Virus record (IMG/VR): IMGVR_UViG_3300021403_000055
Coordinates: 1 to 22,506 of that record
DNA length: 22,506 nucleotides
Origin: a virus
Direction: 5' to 3' (one strand)
In this document: positions 5,436 through 22,343 of the stretch, piece after piece
Numbering within the stretch: position 1 is the first letter of the stretch
Layout: the number at the start of each line of letters is the position of its first letter
The notes under the pieces: model-generated
Told to the model about the DNA's origin: nothing
Database searches by the model: none
Seen by the model: only the letters and a program-made list of their open reading frames with translations
Position numbers and translations under genes: made by a program

Positions 5436-5573
5436 ATGCTTGGCGATAAATATAGAGTTGAAGTCTATATTAATCCCAACTTAAAAGGTGACGAGCATTG
5501 TGGAAATCTTGGAGCAATCATCCGTCAACGAATTCGAAAAAATTCTTTAGTTGTTTGGGCAGAGGAAATTTAG
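5436..5573 (+). CDS. small hypothetical protein ending on the tRNA
   Basis: A 45-residue frame (MLGDKYRVEVYINPNLKGDE...) with GGAA about eight bases before ATG 5436; a GTG at 5412 would add eight residues. The sequence looks like a small beta-rich fold (YRVEVYI...GNLGAIIRQRI...LVVWAEE). Its TAG stop ends on base 5573, which is also G1 of the tRNA, so gene and tRNA overlap by one base. The frame stays open beyond that TAG apart from one more TAG at 5580 and joins the next gene in frame. The 95 bases upstream hold only a doubtful 25-codon ORF (5341-5418). Confidence 0.5.
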   Translation: MLGDKYRVEVYINPNLKGDEHCGNLGAIIRQRIRKNSLVVWAEEI

Positions 5574-5647
5574 CGCGTATAGCTCAGAGAAAGAGCAGCG
5601 GTCCCTAAAACCGTGTGTCGTGGGTTTGAGTCCCACTGCGCGCTCCA
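5573..5647 (+). tRNA. tRNA with predicted anticodon CUA (suppressor-like), CCA encoded
   Basis: A full cloverleaf can be drawn. Acceptor GCGCGTA pairs with TGCGCGC (one G-U), discriminator T5644 is followed by encoded CCA, the D-stem is GCTC/GAGC, the anticodon stem is GCGGT/ACCGT, there is a five-base variable loop, and the T-stem is GTGGG/CCCAC. The seven-base anticodon loop is CCCTAAA, which places CTA at 34-36, i.e. a reader of UAG. Position 33 is C instead of the nearly universal U. The D-loop AGAGAAA lacks the usual GG and the T-loop is TTTGAGT: G19 is replaced by A and C56 by T, a compensated swap of the elbow pair. It is probably functional as a folded tRNA; the decoding assignment is less certain. 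Confidence 0.8.
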
Positions 5648-6253: not shown

Positions 6254-6844
6254 ATGTGGTCGAAATTTAAAGCTTGGATTATTGCTCATGCGCCGTTCAA
6301 TTTGGCGCCAGGAGCTATTTTTGCAGTTTTGACATTGATTTTTCTGATTCTTGTTGGTCTTTGGGTCAATAGGGCTCATTCGGCCACAGTATTCGACGAG
6401 AAGCCATACGTCCAATTTAATGTTGGTTCAACAGTAATTCGCGGAGTTACTCCAACATTCGGTATTGATTTGGTTGAACCAACAAATTTGGTAAAAGGTT
6501 CTGATATAGTGATTGGTATGTTTGCTGTTGGGCGTTCTACTTGGAAGAACTGTCCTATAGACGGAGCCGGTAATCACCAATGTGAATCCAATTTGGCTTG
6601 GCGAGCCATTTTTGAAGATACTGTGTATGGTAATAAATTTGGAGCGGTTCGGGCAGGTATTGGTATTTCTTACATGACCAATTATCTACCTTATAATGGT
6701 GGAAATGTCAACGCGAATCTTCAATTGGCGTACGAATTCTACAAGGCTCCATTGACCATTACGTATACTCATTTTTCTTGTGGAGGTTCTTGTAGTCCTA
6801 ATGCTGGTCGGGATCTTTTGTTACTTGGATGGAGATTCAACTAA
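6254..6844 (+). CDS. PagL-like lipid A deacylase / outer-membrane beta-barrel protein
   Basis: A 196-residue protein with a good ribosome binding site (AGGAG). An N-terminal hydrophobic segment (about 20-38) ending at AHSA is probably a signal sequence. The rest alternates short amphipathic strands, as in a small beta-barrel. The C-terminal block YTHFSCGGSCSPNAGRDLLL ends in WRFN with a terminal aromatic region. H173, S175 and D187 line up in order and spacing with the His-Ser-Glu triad of PagL lipid A 3-O-deacylase (H126, S128, E140), with Asp in place of Glu, and PNAG matches the family's PN-x-G. It may remodel lipopolysaccharide in the infected cell, for example to alter receptors or resist other phages. 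Strand count and activity are unproven. Confidence 0.65.
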   Translation: MWSKFKAWIIAHAPFNLAPGAIFAVLTLIFLILVGLWVNRAHSATVFDEKPYVQFNVGSTVIRGVTPTFGIDLVEPTNLVKGSDIVIGMFAVGRSTWKNCPIDGAGNHQCESNLAWRAIFEDTVYGNKFGAVRAGIGISYMTNYLPYNGGNVNANLQLAYEFYKAPLTITYTHFSCGGSCSPNAGRDLLLLGWRFN

Positions 6845-12345: not shown

Positions 12346-12346
12346 T
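12298..12346. terminator. terminator between converging transcripts
   Basis: GGGCCACCC (12306-12314) pairs with GGGTGGCCC (12329-12337) over nine perfect pairs, extended by ATGAATG/CATTCAT outside a two-base bulge, with a 14-base loop. A short T run (12343-12346) follows on the + strand. The gene to the right ends on the - strand exactly here, so the hairpin probably stops transcription from both sides; the T run on the - side is poor. Confidence 0.65.
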
Positions 12347-14130
12347 CAGATACGATACATTGCTCCATAGCCTTGTGGAGCATCAAAAAGTCCTGCATTC
12401 AAAGAATCAGCAGAAGGTTCTGGATTACGCGGACTTACTACAACCCCAATTGGACTCTGAGACGGCGTAGGGACAACCGTAGTCTTGTTTCCACCTTTCA
12501 CCACTACAACCTGTGGGGATGAATCTTTATCAGATTCTAGTGTGTTATTTGTTTCGGTAGCTTTGGAAAGCGCTGTTGGGAGTGCTCTTGGAGGTTGAGT
12601 AGGTTTTACTTTCAACGCCTCAAATTCGGCTTCATGTTTTTGGATATACTCCTGAGCTCGTTTCGACGTTCCACCGCGCGTATCTCCCGTCTTGGCATTG
12701 ATAAGTGTCTTATATTCTTCTGGAAGATCATCATTGCCCTTTACTTCGCTATCTCCATAATTGTGATACTTTTTACCTTTTAATTCAAAATTACCATTAC
12801 CAAGAGCCTTTAATCCGTAATCCTGTTCCAATTTCTTGAATGGACTTGCGGCACGATCGTATTCATATTTGGCCATACGGTCGATGGCTAAGGCCTGACC
12901 AGCCGTAAGAACAGCTGCACCAAGAGCGGCTCCCGTTTCGGCAAAACCAGCGCGAGCCAATATAGGTTTGAGTTTTGACCAAACGTTACTAAAGATTGTG
13001 CTTGCGAGCTTACCTAATTGAGATAGAACTTTTCCCACATTGGCGCCAATAGCTCGAATAGCCTTCCAAGCTAATCCTAGCATTTGTAAGATTGTTCCTA
13101 GCATACTTCCAAAATTATTTTTTCCACTTCTACCCAACAACGTATCCAATTTCTTTTTCATATCGTCTATGGATGTTTGGATTTTATCGATACGTTGATG
13201 AAGGGCTTTTGCGTCTTCTTCTTTTTGTACAAATTCTTTGGTGTGTTGTGCTTGCGCCTGATCAGAATTACCCATTTGAATATTGCTGAGAGCGTTTGGA
13301 ACGTTTTCTGTTGGCACGCGTTCAACAGTAGATGGCGTCTTATTTTCTGTTGGTTTGGCACGTTCAAATTTTGGTAATCCACCAGAAAAAACTTTCTCGG
13401 CAAATCGATCTGTCGTCAATCCACCTACAAATGATTTTAAAAATCCTCCTTGACGTCGTCTGCTCTTTATAAGATTAGAACCCAAAGGTTTCTTCTTACC
13501 AAACAAATACTCATGAATTTCATCAACGCTAGCACGAATAGCCTTGATATCTGCAGACGTAGCAGGAACTTTCTTTTTTTCTTTGTTGTTTAATAATTCA
13601 GGAAGATTTTGTAAGGATACAGATTCTGTTCCTGGAGTATTCGGATGTTGTTTTATGAGTTTTTTGGCTGTGTCTTTTCCTAGGAAATTTTGTAATGATG
13701 AATGAACGCGTTTTCCTTCGTTTTTTGGTGATTCTTCGTATTTTGTTTGGGATTGGTTTGTGAAATCGTCCTTCTCAATTTTATTCAGTAATTCCTGTGC
13801 CACAGGTCGGCTGATGGAAAGACGGTATGCAAGAATTCTTGCGTCCATCTTTCCTTCCTGTTCTATAAGTTCACGAGCGCGTTCCAACAAATCTTCTTCT
13901 GATTCGTTTTTAATCTTTCCTTGTTTTGAAGCTCCTTTTACAGAAGCTTTGGGTTTTTTAGCCGGAAGCTTTGGTGGTTCTGGTGTTTTTGCCTTTGGTT
14001 TTTCATTTGGAGCAACCCTTTGATCCAATTCGTGTTGGATTTCTGGTGGTATTGGTAGGTTTTTTTCCTTGAGAACTTTGACAAAGTCCTCAAGATTTAA
14101 ACCCGCTGGTGTTTTCTTCTTAGCTGCCAT
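12346..14130 (-). CDS. gp29-like tail protein (hub subunit / tape measure candidate)
   Basis: A 594-residue protein, close to the 590 residues of T4 gp29. The N-terminal 200 residues are lysine- and proline-rich and probably extended. Residues about 295-345 form a coiled coil (EEDAKALHQRIDKIQTSIDD). Next comes a hydrophobic helical region (about 350-420) with LGAAVLTAGQALAIDRMA that could be stored in the tube or inserted into the host membrane, then a polar C-terminus with PSADSLNAGLFDAPQGYG. It is the last gene of the minus-strand baseplate operon, with GAGG before the ATG and three bases after the gp51-like gene. The gp29 identity rests on size, composition and context, not on clear residue similarity. 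Confidence 0.55.
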   Translation of the reverse strand: MAAKKKTPAGLNLEDFVKVLKEKNLPIPPEIQHELDQRVAPNEKPKAKTPEPPKLPAKKPKASVKGASKQGKIKNESEEDLLERARELIEQEGKMDARILAYRLSISRPVAQELLNKIEKDDFTNQSQTKYEESPKNEGKRVHSSLQNFLGKDTAKKLIKQHPNTPGTESVSLQNLPELLNNKEKKKVPATSADIKAIRASVDEIHEYLFGKKKPLGSNLIKSRRRQGGFLKSFVGGLTTDRFAEKVFSGGLPKFERAKPTENKTPSTVERVPTENVPNALSNIQMGNSDQAQAQHTKEFVQKEEDAKALHQRIDKIQTSIDDMKKKLDTLLGRSGKNNFGSMLGTILQMLGLAWKAIRAIGANVGKVLSQLGKLASTIFSNVWSKLKPILARAGFAETGAALGAAVLTAGQALAIDRMAKYEYDRAASPFKKLEQDYGLKALGNGNFELKGKKYHNYGDSEVKGNDDLPEEYKTLINAKTGDTRGGTSKRAQEYIQKHEAEFEALKVKPTQPPRALPTALSKATETNNTLESDKDSSPQVVVVKGGNKTTVVPTPSQSPIGVVVSPRNPEPSADSLNAGLFDAPQGYGAMYRI

Positions 14131-17954: not shown

Positions 17955-18617
17955 ATGAAGTATTTTGAACAATTTCCGCAGATTCTTTACACATTTTCAG
18001 ATCCATCGCTTAATGATTTCCAACAAGTGACAGACATTTTTACGCGTGTTCGTATGTTGGATTCTATTATAAGCAATATATCTGTGTATTACACGTATGA
18101 TGTTAAGGATGGAGATACGCCGGATTCTATTGCATCGAAATATTACAGTGATCCAAATAGAGCTTGGATTATTCTTTTTACCAACAAAATTATTGATCCA
18201 TATTTCCAATGGCCAATGAATCAGGATTCTCTTGAAACTTTGATGATCAATAATTATGGTTCTGTTGCTAATACACAAATAACCACAGATCATATTGAGA
18301 AGCAATTAATCATAACATCAACAAAATTTCAAAGCTCTAATACACAAATATACACCAGCGTTATATCAAATTCTGTAATATCAATTGATGGATCAAACGT
18401 TTTACCTACATTGGATAATCCTATCATCCAAGTTGGAGCGAATTCAGTTGCAATATTTGATGATGGGACAAAGGTTGATAAATCAGTTTTGTTGGTTTGG
18501 ATTTCTACTTATGAACAAATCATTAATACCAACGAGTCCTATCGTTCAATCAAATTAATCCAACCAGGATACATTCAACAGATCGAGACAGAATTACAGA
18601 ATTTGCTAAATCAATAA
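17955..18617 (+). CDS. gp53: baseplate wedge subunit gp53-like
   Basis: A 220-residue protein (T4 gp53 has 196). The region TDIFTRVRMLDSIISNISVYYTYDVKDGDTPDSIASKYYSDPNRAWIILFTNKIIDPYFQWPM matches the LysM-like core of gp53 in order, including D-P-x-x-x-W and the DPY-x-W turn. The C-terminal SIKLIQPGYIQQIETELQNLL corresponds to the final IKII...I.SFMNDLI helix. The middle (about 100-170) is a strand-rich insertion. It is a wedge part of the baseplate. Start is two bases after gp48; the stop overlaps the next ATG. Confidence 0.85.
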   Translation: MKYFEQFPQILYTFSDPSLNDFQQVTDIFTRVRMLDSIISNISVYYTYDVKDGDTPDSIASKYYSDPNRAWIILFTNKIIDPYFQWPMNQDSLETLMINNYGSVANTQITTDHIEKQLIITSTKFQSSNTQIYTSVISNSVISIDGSNVLPTLDNPIIQVGANSVAIFDDGTKVDKSVLLVWISTYEQIINTNESYRSIKLIQPGYIQQIETELQNLLNQ

Positions 18618-19939
18618 TGGATACAAATACTACAAATCCTGGTCTTGCTCCTTCAAATCAAGCAGGATTAATTTATTCTGGTGATTACCAAATTAAAGCT
18701 TTGACTATTATTACTTCCGATGGTCAGGTTGTTGATATTAAGAACAATTATGTGGAATTGAATATATATGAGGATTTGTTTGGAGCTTGTATGACCGGCA
18801 CCGTTCTTATGGGTGACGCTTTGGATCTTATAGCAAACTTCAAAATTCATGGTAATGAATGGCTTCAAATTGATATTGATAAACCTACTTTAGACAAACC
18901 AATCCAGAAAGTTTTTCGTGTTTATAAGGTATCCAACCGCGAATTTAAAACTGCTAGTTTACAGAACTATATCCTTCATTTTTGCTCTGAAGAACTTGTC
19001 CTATCCAGCCAGAGATTTCTTTCCAAATCGTATAAAGGGATGATTATTAGCGATATGGTAAAGGACGTTATGTTGAATCAACTGGGAGTAAGCGGTCCAA
19101 AATCTTCAACAGGCTTATGGGATAAAACAACAGGGCTATTCAACATCATTATACCAAGAATGAATCCATTGGAAGCAATTCAGTGGTTATCTACGCGTGC
19201 TTACTCTTCTGATGGAACTTTATTCATGTTCTTTGAGAATCGTGATGGATTCAATTTTGTGGCATACGAAACCTTGTTGAAAATTCCAATCTATCAAAAA
19301 TACTTTAAAACGCCAAAACTTTCTACAAGCGCGCAAGATAATATCAACAGCGTTAATTTTCTTCGGATTATACAAGATTTTGATATTTTGGCTTCCGGAC
19401 GATATGGAGCATTCGGAAGTTCATTATTATCGTACGATTTTGTCAATAGAAAATTTAGTGGAACTACCTTTGATCCAAACAATTTTACGTTGTTGAATGA
19501 TAATCTGCCCATTAATTCAACCAAGAATCGTTTCAATGTACCTTTGTTGGGTAATTCGGACTATTTGTTGAAGTTCTATCCTACGTCTGATAGTGATCCA
19601 AAAATTAATGGTTCCCATCCTGAGAATTGGTTACAAAAGAAGGCTATGAAATTGGCGCAACTTTTCCAATTTAAGATGGTTATTTCAATTCCTGGGGATA
19701 TACTAATGAAGGTGGGAAGGATTGTTGACGTTGAATTACCCAAAGCTGTTCCTCAGAATTCTGCTGGTAATCAGGTGAGCGAAACGCGTTCTGGTTCGTA
19801 TTTGGTCAGCGCAGTGCACCATATATTCATCAACGATACATCCACAACGGTAATGGAACTGTTAAGCGATTCTGTGAGTGGAACGCTCAACGCTCCATTG
19901 GATAATTCGCCAACAATGAAAGCGGTGAAACAGAGATGA
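18617..19939 (+). CDS. gp27: baseplate hub protein gp27-like
   Basis: A 440-residue protein. The N-terminal barrel segment (YQIKALTIITSDGQVVDIKN, VELNIYEDLFGACMTGTVLM, GNEWLQIDI) and the following FRVYKVSNREFKTASLQNYIL, PRMNPLEAIQWLSTRA and GTLFMFFENRDGFNFV are the pattern of gp27/VgrG-type hub proteins. The C-terminal barrel (GDILMKVGRIVDVELPKA, GSYLVSAVHHIFINDTSTTVME) also fits. It would form the trimeric torus below the tail tube that carries the gp5 needle. Next to gp53 and gp5, as expected. Start TAATG overlap, stop ATGA overlap. Confidence 0.85.
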   Translation: MDTNTTNPGLAPSNQAGLIYSGDYQIKALTIITSDGQVVDIKNNYVELNIYEDLFGACMTGTVLMGDALDLIANFKIHGNEWLQIDIDKPTLDKPIQKVFRVYKVSNREFKTASLQNYILHFCSEELVLSSQRFLSKSYKGMIISDMVKDVMLNQLGVSGPKSSTGLWDKTTGLFNIIIPRMNPLEAIQWLSTRAYSSDGTLFMFFENRDGFNFVAYETLLKIPIYQKYFKTPKLSTSAQDNINSVNFLRIIQDFDILASGRYGAFGSSLLSYDFVNRKFSGTTFDPNNFTLLNDNLPINSTKNRFNVPLLGNSDYLLKFYPTSDSDPKINGSHPENWLQKKAMKLAQLFQFKMVISIPGDILMKVGRIVDVELPKAVPQNSAGNQVSETRSGSYLVSAVHHIFINDTSTTVMELLSDSVSGTLNAPLDNSPTMKAVKQR

Positions 19940-20463
19940 TTAGATTTAGACAATTTTTATTGAGTGAATGCGTGACCATAAACGCGCCAAATGGTATTTT
20001 TATTAAGGTAACTCCTACAAATAACACAATTAGAAAACTTTGCGGTTATTTTTATCAATTTGAGGAAATTATTCCTTTGTTGGATGATTTCCACTGTACT
20101 TTACTATACAGTAATACACCAGCCTATAATATAGACCTACCATATATAAGTTCAGACGAAAGATTTTCGGCTATTGGAACCGGATTATCACATTGGGCTG
20201 GTCAGGAAGGTAAAGGTTATATTGTATTGAATTTGGTATCGCCAGAACTTGCAGCTTTAAATAAGAAATTTTCTGATGCTGGATTCAAAGGAACCTTTCC
20301 AGACTACCACCCACATGTGTCGTTAATACATCCTGTACCTGATTTTGAAAAAATCAAACCAATCTTTGATTCAATAAACGAGGCTTTACAATCGAAAAAT
20401 CCTCCTTTAAGTTTGAGTTTTTATTATGGTGGTTATACTATTGCAGATCCTGAGGAAAAATAA
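19936..20463 (+). CDS. acb1: Acb1-like 2H phosphoesterase (probable anti-CBASS protein)
   Basis: A 175-residue protein with two H-x-(T/S) motifs of the 2H phosphoesterase fold: H53-C-T55 in DDFHCTLLYS and H127-V-S129 in YHPHVSLIHP. A central GTGLSHWAGQEGKGYIVLNL segment resembles T4 57B/Acb1, which cleaves the cyclic nucleotides made by CBASS defence; this is by-eye similarity. The first residues MIRFRQFLLSE match the pattern of T4 capsid-targeting sequences (M-x-x-aromatic-x-x-F-(I/L)-x-E) and end in L-x-E, the gp21 protease site. The enzyme may thus be packed in the head and injected. It lies inside the late baseplate operon with ATGA and TAATG overlaps. Confidence 0.75.
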   Translation: MIRFRQFLLSECVTINAPNGIFIKVTPTNNTIRKLCGYFYQFEEIIPLLDDFHCTLLYSNTPAYNIDLPYISSDERFSAIGTGLSHWAGQEGKGYIVLNLVSPELAALNKKFSDAGFKGTFPDYHPHVSLIHPVPDFEKIKPIFDSINEALQSKNPPLSLSFYYGGYTIADPEEK

Positions 20464-22343
20464 TGGCTGGTCCTTTTGAGAAAAATGTTGCAGGATTTGA
20501 TGGATTCATATGGTTTATGGGAATTGTTGAATCGCGCCAGGATCCATTGGCGCTTAGTCGAGTCCAAGTGCGTTGTTTTAATGTTCATAGCGCTTCTCTG
20601 ACTGATATACCATCTGTAGATTTACCATGGGCTACAGTCATGCAGAGTGCTCTCAGTGCACCACCATTGGCTCTTAAAGAAAATGATGTTGTATTTGGAT
20701 TTTTTGCTGATGGTCGTTCATGTCAAACCCCAGTCATTTTGGGAATTCTTCCTGGATTCCAAGTAGAAACGGCGCGCCAAGGTTTAGGATTCAGCGATCA
20801 AAGATCCAATACAGATTTACAATCTGCACCAAGAAAGCCTCAAAAGATCACTTATAATGTTGATGGATCGGGTGTGGTCATCACAAACTCTAATACAGCT
20901 TCTCTTTATCCAATAAACGCTGATCTTGATAAACCAAGTCTTTCGGGAGCCACCCGTTACGATATAGCAAATACAGTAATCAATACCAGAAAAACAAATT
21001 TGGATAAAGGCGTGGTGACCGCAACAGGCTTGACCTGGGACGAGCCATATCCAGCATACAATCCTCTTTATCCATACAATAAAGCTTATGAAACAGAATC
21101 AGGCCATCTTATCGAATACGATGACACGCCTAACCAAGAACGAATCACGTTTACTCATCGGAGTGGTTCTTTCCTTGATTTTTACCCAACTGGAACCCGC
21201 GTTGAAAAAATCACCAGATCAGGATATTCCATAACAATGGGCGACGATTTCGTTCATGTTATGGGGCGTTGTTTAATTACAGTTGGTGAAGGAGCTTATG
21301 TAAAGATTCTTGGTGACGCGAATATTGAATGCGGTAATAATTTAAATGTTGGCGTTGCTGGAGATGCAAATTTTTCTGTTGGAGGCTCATTCAATATCAA
21401 AGCGAAGTCTTATAATGCTAATATTGATGATACGGCAACAATGGTCACCGGTTTCAAACAATTCTTTACAAGTCAAGGCGATGTTCATATCAATGCCCAG
21501 GGAACAAATTTTCTAACAGCCGCAGGCCAATTGGAATTATTTTGTTCTGGTGCAGTAGACATTCAAGGCTCGGAAATCAATTGTGAGCTTGGGGCCCAAG
21601 AAGCCCAGATTGGAACTGGTAATAGTATTGCCGCAGCCCCAGCAGTTGCAACACCAAATAAGGGACAAGCTCCACTTGAAACAACTCCTGTTCCATTTCC
21701 TCAGAATTTCACACAATTGGATTCGGATACCGGAGTGGCTTATAAACAAAGTCAATTCCTAGATAATGGACAACCTCCAGATAGCAACGCAAATGGTACT
21801 TCCATGACATGTAATTTCGATCCAAATACCAAAACTTTTCTTCCTTCTGATAGTTGGACTATTTCATCAGATGGATTGGATAAACTTCAGATAAGAGAAG
21901 GACTTGCTAAAGTTCTAGCGAATGGTATGGTGCAATGTTATCCTGATCCAGCAACCGGTTCGGAACCTATTACAGTAGGTTTTGGAACTACTCAATCTGT
22001 TCTTACAACTATTGATCCAAATGTTGTTCTCACGCTTCAATTTGTTACAACCAAACAACAGTGTTCAACTTGGTTAGAAAACGCCTTGGACCAAATCTTT
22101 ATTCCAAAATTAAAGGAATATATTACTGTTGATTTAACCCAGAATCAAGTGGATGCGTTACTTTCTTTCATGTATAATGTTGGTGTAGGTAATTTTGCTT
22201 CCAGTACGCTTCGTAAGGATGTGAATACCCAAAGCTGGTGTAAGGCTGGAGACGACTTTCTAATGTGGAACAAAGCGGCTGGTAAAGTTGTTCCTGGGAT
22301 CGTAAAACGTCGCGAGGATGAGAGAACTCAATTCCTTGGCTAA
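20463..22343 (+). CDS. gp5: baseplate central spike gp5-like with C-terminal lysozyme
   Basis: A 626-residue protein. Residues about 14-100 form the OB-fold (FIWFMGIVESRQDPLALSRV, NDVVFGFFADG, TPVILGIL). Residues about 205-385 are repetitive strands (GHLIEYDDT, ITVGEGAYVKILGDANIEC, NVGVAGDANFSVGGSFNIKA) forming the needle's beta-prism. After a polar linker, residues about 465-626 are a phage lysozyme (GH24): REGL with E479, YPDP with D495, PITVGFGTT with T504, then NQVDALLSFMYNVGVG, FLMWNKAAGKVVPGIVKRREDE. The protein pierces the envelope and cuts peptidoglycan on entry. In T4 gp5 the lysozyme lies between the OB fold and the needle; here it is last. Confidence 0.88.
   Translation: MAGPFEKNVAGFDGFIWFMGIVESRQDPLALSRVQVRCFNVHSASLTDIPSVDLPWATVMQSALSAPPLALKENDVVFGFFADGRSCQTPVILGILPGFQVETARQGLGFSDQRSNTDLQSAPRKPQKITYNVDGSGVVITNSNTASLYPINADLDKPSLSGATRYDIANTVINTRKTNLDKGVVTATGLTWDEPYPAYNPLYPYNKAYETESGHLIEYDDTPNQERITFTHRSGSFLDFYPTGTRVEKITRSGYSITMGDDFVHVMGRCLITVGEGAYVKILGDANIECGNNLNVGVAGDANFSVGGSFNIKAKSYNANIDDTATMVTGFKQFFTSQGDVHINAQGTNFLTAAGQLELFCSGAVDIQGSEINCELGAQEAQIGTGNSIAAAPAVATPNKGQAPLETTPVPFPQNFTQLDSDTGVAYKQSQFLDNGQPPDSNANGTSMTCNFDPNTKTFLPSDSWTISSDGLDKLQIREGLAKVLANGMVQCYPDPATGSEPITVGFGTTQSVLTTIDPNVVLTLQFVTTKQQCSTWLENALDQIFIPKLKEYITVDLTQNQVDALLSFMYNVGVGNFASSTLRKDVNTQSWCKAGDDFLMWNKAAGKVVPGIVKRREDERTQFLG

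Follow-up and report, generated by a model that had tools for sequence, protein, structure and literature searches.

An Acb1-family enzyme with a putative capsid-targeting propeptide encoded among the baseplate genes of a T4-superfamily myovirus

The window, which is the whole 22,506-base virus record analysed here and derives from a T4-superfamily myovirus, encodes an enzyme of the Acb1 family whose first eleven residues are probably a capsid-targeting tag. In the reading preferred here, this Acb1-type enzyme would be made with a capsid-targeting propeptide, cut by a gp21-type protease, packaged in the head, and injected together with the DNA; the chances of packaging and injection are about even. 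The parts of such a system are known, and the combination of an Acb1 with a packaging tag was without precedent in the open literature searched. Likewise, no virion-borne or injected Acb1 was found in the open-licence literature.

Table 1. Positions of features in the window, and tagged proteins of related phages (the propeptide and its cut are predictions)
Feature	Position	Strand	Description
Upstream gp27-like hub/tail protein gene	18617..19939	+	phrog_350 (2e-73); same place as the gp27-like gene of phiM12
acb1-like gene	19936..20463	+	175 aa, Acb1-family 2H phosphodiesterase; PF23474, phrog_755, structural matches
Putative capsid-targeting propeptide MIRFRQFLLSE	19936..19968	+	Codons 1-11; F4, F7, L9-S-E11
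Predicted propeptide cut	between 19968 and 19969	+	After E11
First 2H motif, H53-C54-T55	20092..20100	+	Aligned with T4 H44-x-T46; no variation at H53 or T55 among 11 Acb1 proteins
Second 2H motif, H127-V128-S129	20314..20322	+	Aligned with T4 H113-x-T115; H127 invariant in 11 Acb1 proteins
Downstream gp5 baseplate hub gene with lysozyme domain	20463..22343	+	phrog_430 (9e-68), PF00959 (2.5e-29)
Operon		+	gp4 (phrog_218), gp48-like cap (phrog_230), gp53 (PF11246), hub (phrog_350), acb1, gp5-lysozyme (phrog_430, PF00959)
G001 tagged protein MSFKKFLAEQ			423 aa; encoded between portal and protease
G001 tagged protein MGSFLEFLTE			91 aa, highly basic; gene lies between the portal and protease genes; weak head-scaffolding PHROG match
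G001 tagged DUF6267 protein			MSFRKFITES
S16 tagged acb1 neighbours			MKTYQEFINEA; MKSFKEFVNES one gene further
SJ_PmiM tagged acb1 neighbour			MKTFDEFLNES

The acb1 frame opens with an ATG, is translated as MIRFRQFLLSECVTINAPNGIFIKV, and is tightly joined to both of its neighbours (Table 1). Its ATG overlaps the stop codon of the hub gene (ATGA), and its stop codon overlaps the ATG of gp5 (TAATG). No start codon 5' of this ATG is present in the open reading frame listing for the acb1 frame. The ATG is favoured as the start because codon 13 is Ile in a homologue with 68% identity, for which reason the main alternative, GTG13, was rejected, and because the ATGA overlap fits translational coupling. 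A TTG at codon 9, kept in the same homologue (L003), is compatible with the sequence as a start but has no support. The remainder of the window encodes gp32, gp2, a gp19-like tube protein, and a T4_baseplate protein in a gene order resembling that of Sinorhizobium phage phiM12, and head genes were not found within its 22.5 kb. The initial annotation placed the gene in a late virion operon; the same-strand neighbours are virion genes, and late transcription is deduced from these neighbours, since the T4 late promoter TATAAATA has no match anywhere in the window.

The assignment to the Acb1 family is firm. PF23474 (Acb1) matches the open reading frame with 51.1 bits against a curated cut-off of 27 and is the sole Pfam family above its cut-off, no LigT model reaching that level. 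Furthermore, phrog_755 ('RNA ligase') matches at 8e-17; NCBIfam and PADLOC returned no match. The structure model, built from 3 sequences with a pLDDT of 75.9, is closest among solved folds to the phosphodiesterase of Burkholderia phage BCSR5 (9q2g; Z 18.4 over 151 residues, 20% identity), for which the literature search found no paper, followed by 7t26 (Z 14.9) and the next family (11.9). The 2H motifs and the Acb1-like layout recognised in the initial annotation are thus borne out. T4 Acb1 (gene 57B), FBB1 Acb1 (7t26/7t27), and the window Acb1 have in common the family, the fold, the two H-x-T/S motifs, and the stacking aromatics. The window protein differs from T4 Acb1 in its sequence (~25% identity), in a tail that is longer and includes an L-x-E site, and in gene location, which is next to 57A and ipI in T4 and between hub and gp5 in the window.

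In T4, the ten N-terminal residues of IPIII are enough for packaging; targeting depends on positions 4 and 7, cleavage is governed by positions 8 and 10 and carried out by gp21 after L/I-x-E, and an Asp at position 10 of IPIII prevents cleavage while leaving targeting intact (PMC9026906). The tail of the window Acb1 follows this rule, with aromatics at F4 and F7 and a cleavage site at L9-S10-E11, so that the likeness to a T4 capsid-targeting signal proposed earlier holds. T4 IPI, IPII, and IPIII similarly carry aromatics at positions 4 and 7 and then L/I-x-E within the first eleven residues; compared with IPIII, the site is placed one residue later, with the Glu at 11 rather than 10. In the model, residues 1-16 have a pLDDT under 50 and are located outside the fold, and the first strand spans residues 21-27. 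The predicted cut after E11 would leave ~8 residues before the G-I-F strand, and T4 Acb1 has nine before the corresponding G-L-Y. The PDB chain of FBB1 Acb1 begins with SGLYV, past the stretch matching the T4 tail, which places this stretch outside the fold in FBB1 Acb1 as well.

How often such a tag arises by chance was gauged with the strict pattern M.{1,3}[FY]..[FYW].?[LIV].E. In a 50-kb stretch of T4, the only hits of this pattern are ipII and ipIII, and after internal ATGs of nine T4-like sequences it occurs in 5/2,945 cases (0.17%). The probability of at least one strict tag among the 44 candidate starts of the window is ~0.07, or 0.16 at the upper confidence limit, and for the acb1 gene alone it is ~0.2%, the gene having been chosen after inspection. 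A tag on acb1 by chance is therefore unlikely for the single gene, and the case is not overwhelming post hoc. The claims made here rest on the strict pattern because a much looser one, applied genome-wide to the related record G001, gave a weak contrast (p=0.27). Not every genome is significantly enriched for the strict pattern, which is missing from Ah1 and, at start ATGs, from Mosig.

G001 (176,865 bp) is the closest near-complete relative found, its gp5 being 60% identical to that of the window over its length. It encodes a gp21-type prohead protease (PF03420 at 7.5e-42), and three of its start ATGs carry the strict tag, versus 0/725 internal ATGs (p=0.02); two of the three tagged proteins belong to the head module (Table 1). 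In cyanophage ACG-2014b, the strict tag MKKFSAFLNEA is carried by a cytidylyltransferase adjoining the DUF6267 gene, and in phiM12, MKSFKQLVE begins a protein encoded between portal and gp21. On account of the tagged proteins in these three phages, the motif is a mark of head-module proteins in the T4 superfamily. The protease and the further proteins with the same N-terminus to which the initial annotation had pointed are both absent from the 22.5-kb window, the head module lying outside this fragment, and both present in G001. In addition, the DUF6267 protein of G001 clusters (140033-144676; L068 33-4676) with a 376-aa histidine-rich protein, MKSFKQLREN, that has a tag-like start; the tag-like proteins of this cluster and the ACG-2014b cytidylyltransferase are possible packaged enzymes.

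Scans of viral contigs yielded only three distinct close relatives of the window Acb1, one of them 100% identical, and a scan of genome contigs yielded no further close homologue. L-x-E is situated just before the fold in 3/3 close homologues (LSE, LNE, LKE), with L9 and E11 invariant. The contig of the 68% homologue starts inside codon 7 (nTT) and reads LLNEC, the aromatic pair being unreadable there, and relative to the window it has synonymous codon changes at L8 and E11. In the Acb1 of G001 (L004, 41% identical), the tail is MKYIDTLKNLQRKKLTKVFSLKEQ, in which the L-x-E is aligned and the aromatic pair is absent; its start codon is uncertain, no Shine-Dalgarno-like sequence being present upstream. 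Of the N-terminal motif, whose loss in homologues had been raised against the proposal, the cleavage site is thus kept in G001 and the F-x-x-F is missing. Matches L058-L060 were left out, as the matched stretch has no spanning open frame in the aligned frame.

The reading that competes most closely takes the protein as a cytoplasmic Acb1 of the usual kind, whose late synthesis from an accessory slot is coupled translationally to that of the baseplate proteins and which degrades CBASS signals when CBASS fires late; its tail would be an unconstrained extension, tag-like by chance. This is a serious possibility that falls short of an even chance. T4 Acb1 follows such a late schedule, its activity being detectable from ~15 min of infection and coinciding with the late onset of CBASS (PMC9117128), so a late acb1 would be useful without packaging, and the readiness before the start of CBASS signalling that the initial annotation predicted is not required. 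Furthermore, the slot between hub and gp5 is a general accessory slot, which is empty in most relatives, contains cp12 and cpeT in ACG-2014b, and contains untagged ORFs in Mosig and L007. Because relatives carry untagged or metabolic genes there, the slot alone is no argument for packaging, and operon position, on which the initial annotation had leaned, was rejected as proof of it. The wide variation of Acb1 tails, several phages having none, also suits a cytoplasmic enzyme, and the lack of the aromatic pair in the G001 Acb1, together with the T4 timing and a window without a protease or a second tag, counts against packaging. However, such an enzyme would leave to coincidence a strict pattern found after only 0.17% of internal ATGs, one that in G001 marks head-module proteins, and an L-x-E at the fold boundary of all three close homologues.

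The same slot is occupied in four marine T4-like contigs (L027, L028, L032, and L033), just upstream of gp5, by a 68-aa ORF that starts MKKFSQYLEEANSKY (MKKFSQYLEEA). This start is tag-like; the ORF is unrelated to Acb1 and has no Pfam or PHROG match.

For a packaged enzyme, the preferred reading, we infer the following course of targeting, cutting, and injection. F4 and F7 would dock Acb1 into the prohead core, and a gp21-type prohead protease would cut behind L-S-E11, so that the mature enzyme would begin at C12 with its catalytic fold intact. Some Acb1 would in this way be packaged, would exit with the DNA at injection, and could open cyclic oligonucleotide alarm signals before any phage gene is expressed; newly made late Acb1 would act as in T4. 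Precedent comes from internal proteins that serve as counter-defence cargo and in which the targeting sequence is the only conserved part (PMC3012670, PMC9391042). Compared with the T4 internal proteins, the cargo in the window phage is an Acb1 enzyme, and its packaging is putative. If it is packaged, the phage would arrive with a signal-destroying enzyme in place, in contrast to T4, whose Acb1, the member studied most, becomes active no earlier than ~15 min, and Acb1 would join those internal proteins of T4 that disable defences on entry.

CBASS signals are the presumed substrate of the window Acb1. A 2H phosphodiesterase, packaged or cytoplasmic, that acts on something else, such as a different cyclic oligonucleotide or RNA ends that are 2',3'-cyclic or 2'-5' linked, is improbable. 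Such an enzyme would be in keeping with a 2H fold common to Usb1 and LigT (Z 10-12, 11.9 or less), with the low identity to T4 Acb1 (only 25%), and with the replacement of Glu141, the adenine contact of T4 Acb1, by Pro156 in the alignment. However, the Acb1 entries of BCSR5 and FBB1 are better structural matches than Usb1 and LigT by a clear margin, PF23474 and not LigT is the only Pfam family to exceed its cut-off, and the base-stacking aromatics Y12, W74, F107, and W147 of T4 have counterparts by alignment in F22, W87, F121, and F162. Glu141 is a specificity residue and no hallmark of the family; owing to its replacement, the nucleotide preferred by the window Acb1 may differ from that of T4 Acb1.

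Among other Acb1 proteins, several tails of the Straboviridae type contain an aromatic pair near the Met, namely those of T4 (MMEFKDF), S16 (MMKFQDF), D479 (MKFQQFLEN), Ah1 (MLKSFSEFTEA), and EniLVp02 (MSGFLDYINQ). The pair is absent from the tails of Acj9, 44RR, SJ_PmiM, and others. With the window left out, it occurs in 3/10 Acb1 lineages versus 5.7% of starts (p=0.016), an enrichment that is only suggestive, the lineages being related. Its distance to the fold ranges from ~3 to 13 residues and its distance to the Met is near constant, which fits a signal read from the N-terminus. That the pair is instead a conserved Acb1 element, for instance one touching the fold or a partner, rather than a packaging signal, would accommodate T4, S16, D479, and EniLVp02, where it is not followed by a clean L/I-x-E site, but is very improbable, given the fixed spacing to the Met instead of the fold and an FBB1 crystal protein that starts past the stretch and still folds.

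The acb1 gene adjoins genes of tagged internal proteins in T4 (ipI), S16, D479, and SJ_PmiM (Table 1). In D479 (L037 4004-6721), acb1 is followed by four tandem capsid-targeting-like starts, namely MEFRTFLTEA, MNDFKQFMVEA, MKTLQTYMVEA, and MGFMDFYSEA. A more general reading, in which Acb1 of the T4 superfamily is, or derives from, an internal head protein and would act at injection to remove alarm nucleotides ahead of phage gene expression, is tentative and rather unlikely. The tag would be complete and cleavable in the window phage, nearly so in Aeromonas phage Ah1, and degenerate in T4 and others. The comparison of tails and neighbours opens the idea to tests in T4, Ah1, and Vibrio phages, and it offers a sequence rule for other injected counter-defence cargo.

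Carriage of an Acb1-like domain by a head protein is not without precedent, because such domains are fused to portals or to a DUF2213 protein in other phages. The PF06381 portal protein of Pseudomonas phage phiPSA1 (L085 1139-2941) ends in an Acb1 domain (PF23474, 148 bits), and in the head gene cluster of IMGVR_UViG_3300037418_000560 (L057 2788-4611), a 607-aa ORF combines an Acb1 domain (PF23474, 143 bits) with DUF2213, a domain of the head-maturation type. The Pam3 portal structure (8hds) has a weak sequence match to T4 Acb1. The PF06381 portals of phiPSA1 and Pam3 and the DUF2213 protein likewise pair an Acb1-like domain with a head protein; these are covalent fusions in other phage lineages, whereas the window Acb1 carries a short and putatively removable tag.

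Elsewhere in the window, a tRNA with a CTA anticodon (5573-5647, +), labelled tRNA-Pyl by ARAGORN, is a possible amber suppressor. The product of 6254-6844 (+) has a marginal match to the PagL lipid A 3-O-deacylase (23.3 bits, cut-off 23) and possibly alters the host surface. On the other strand, a 594-aa protein (12346-14130, -) is encoded adjoining the T4_baseplate gene and has no Pfam or PHROG match; by its position, compared with phiM12, it may be a tape-measure-like protein.
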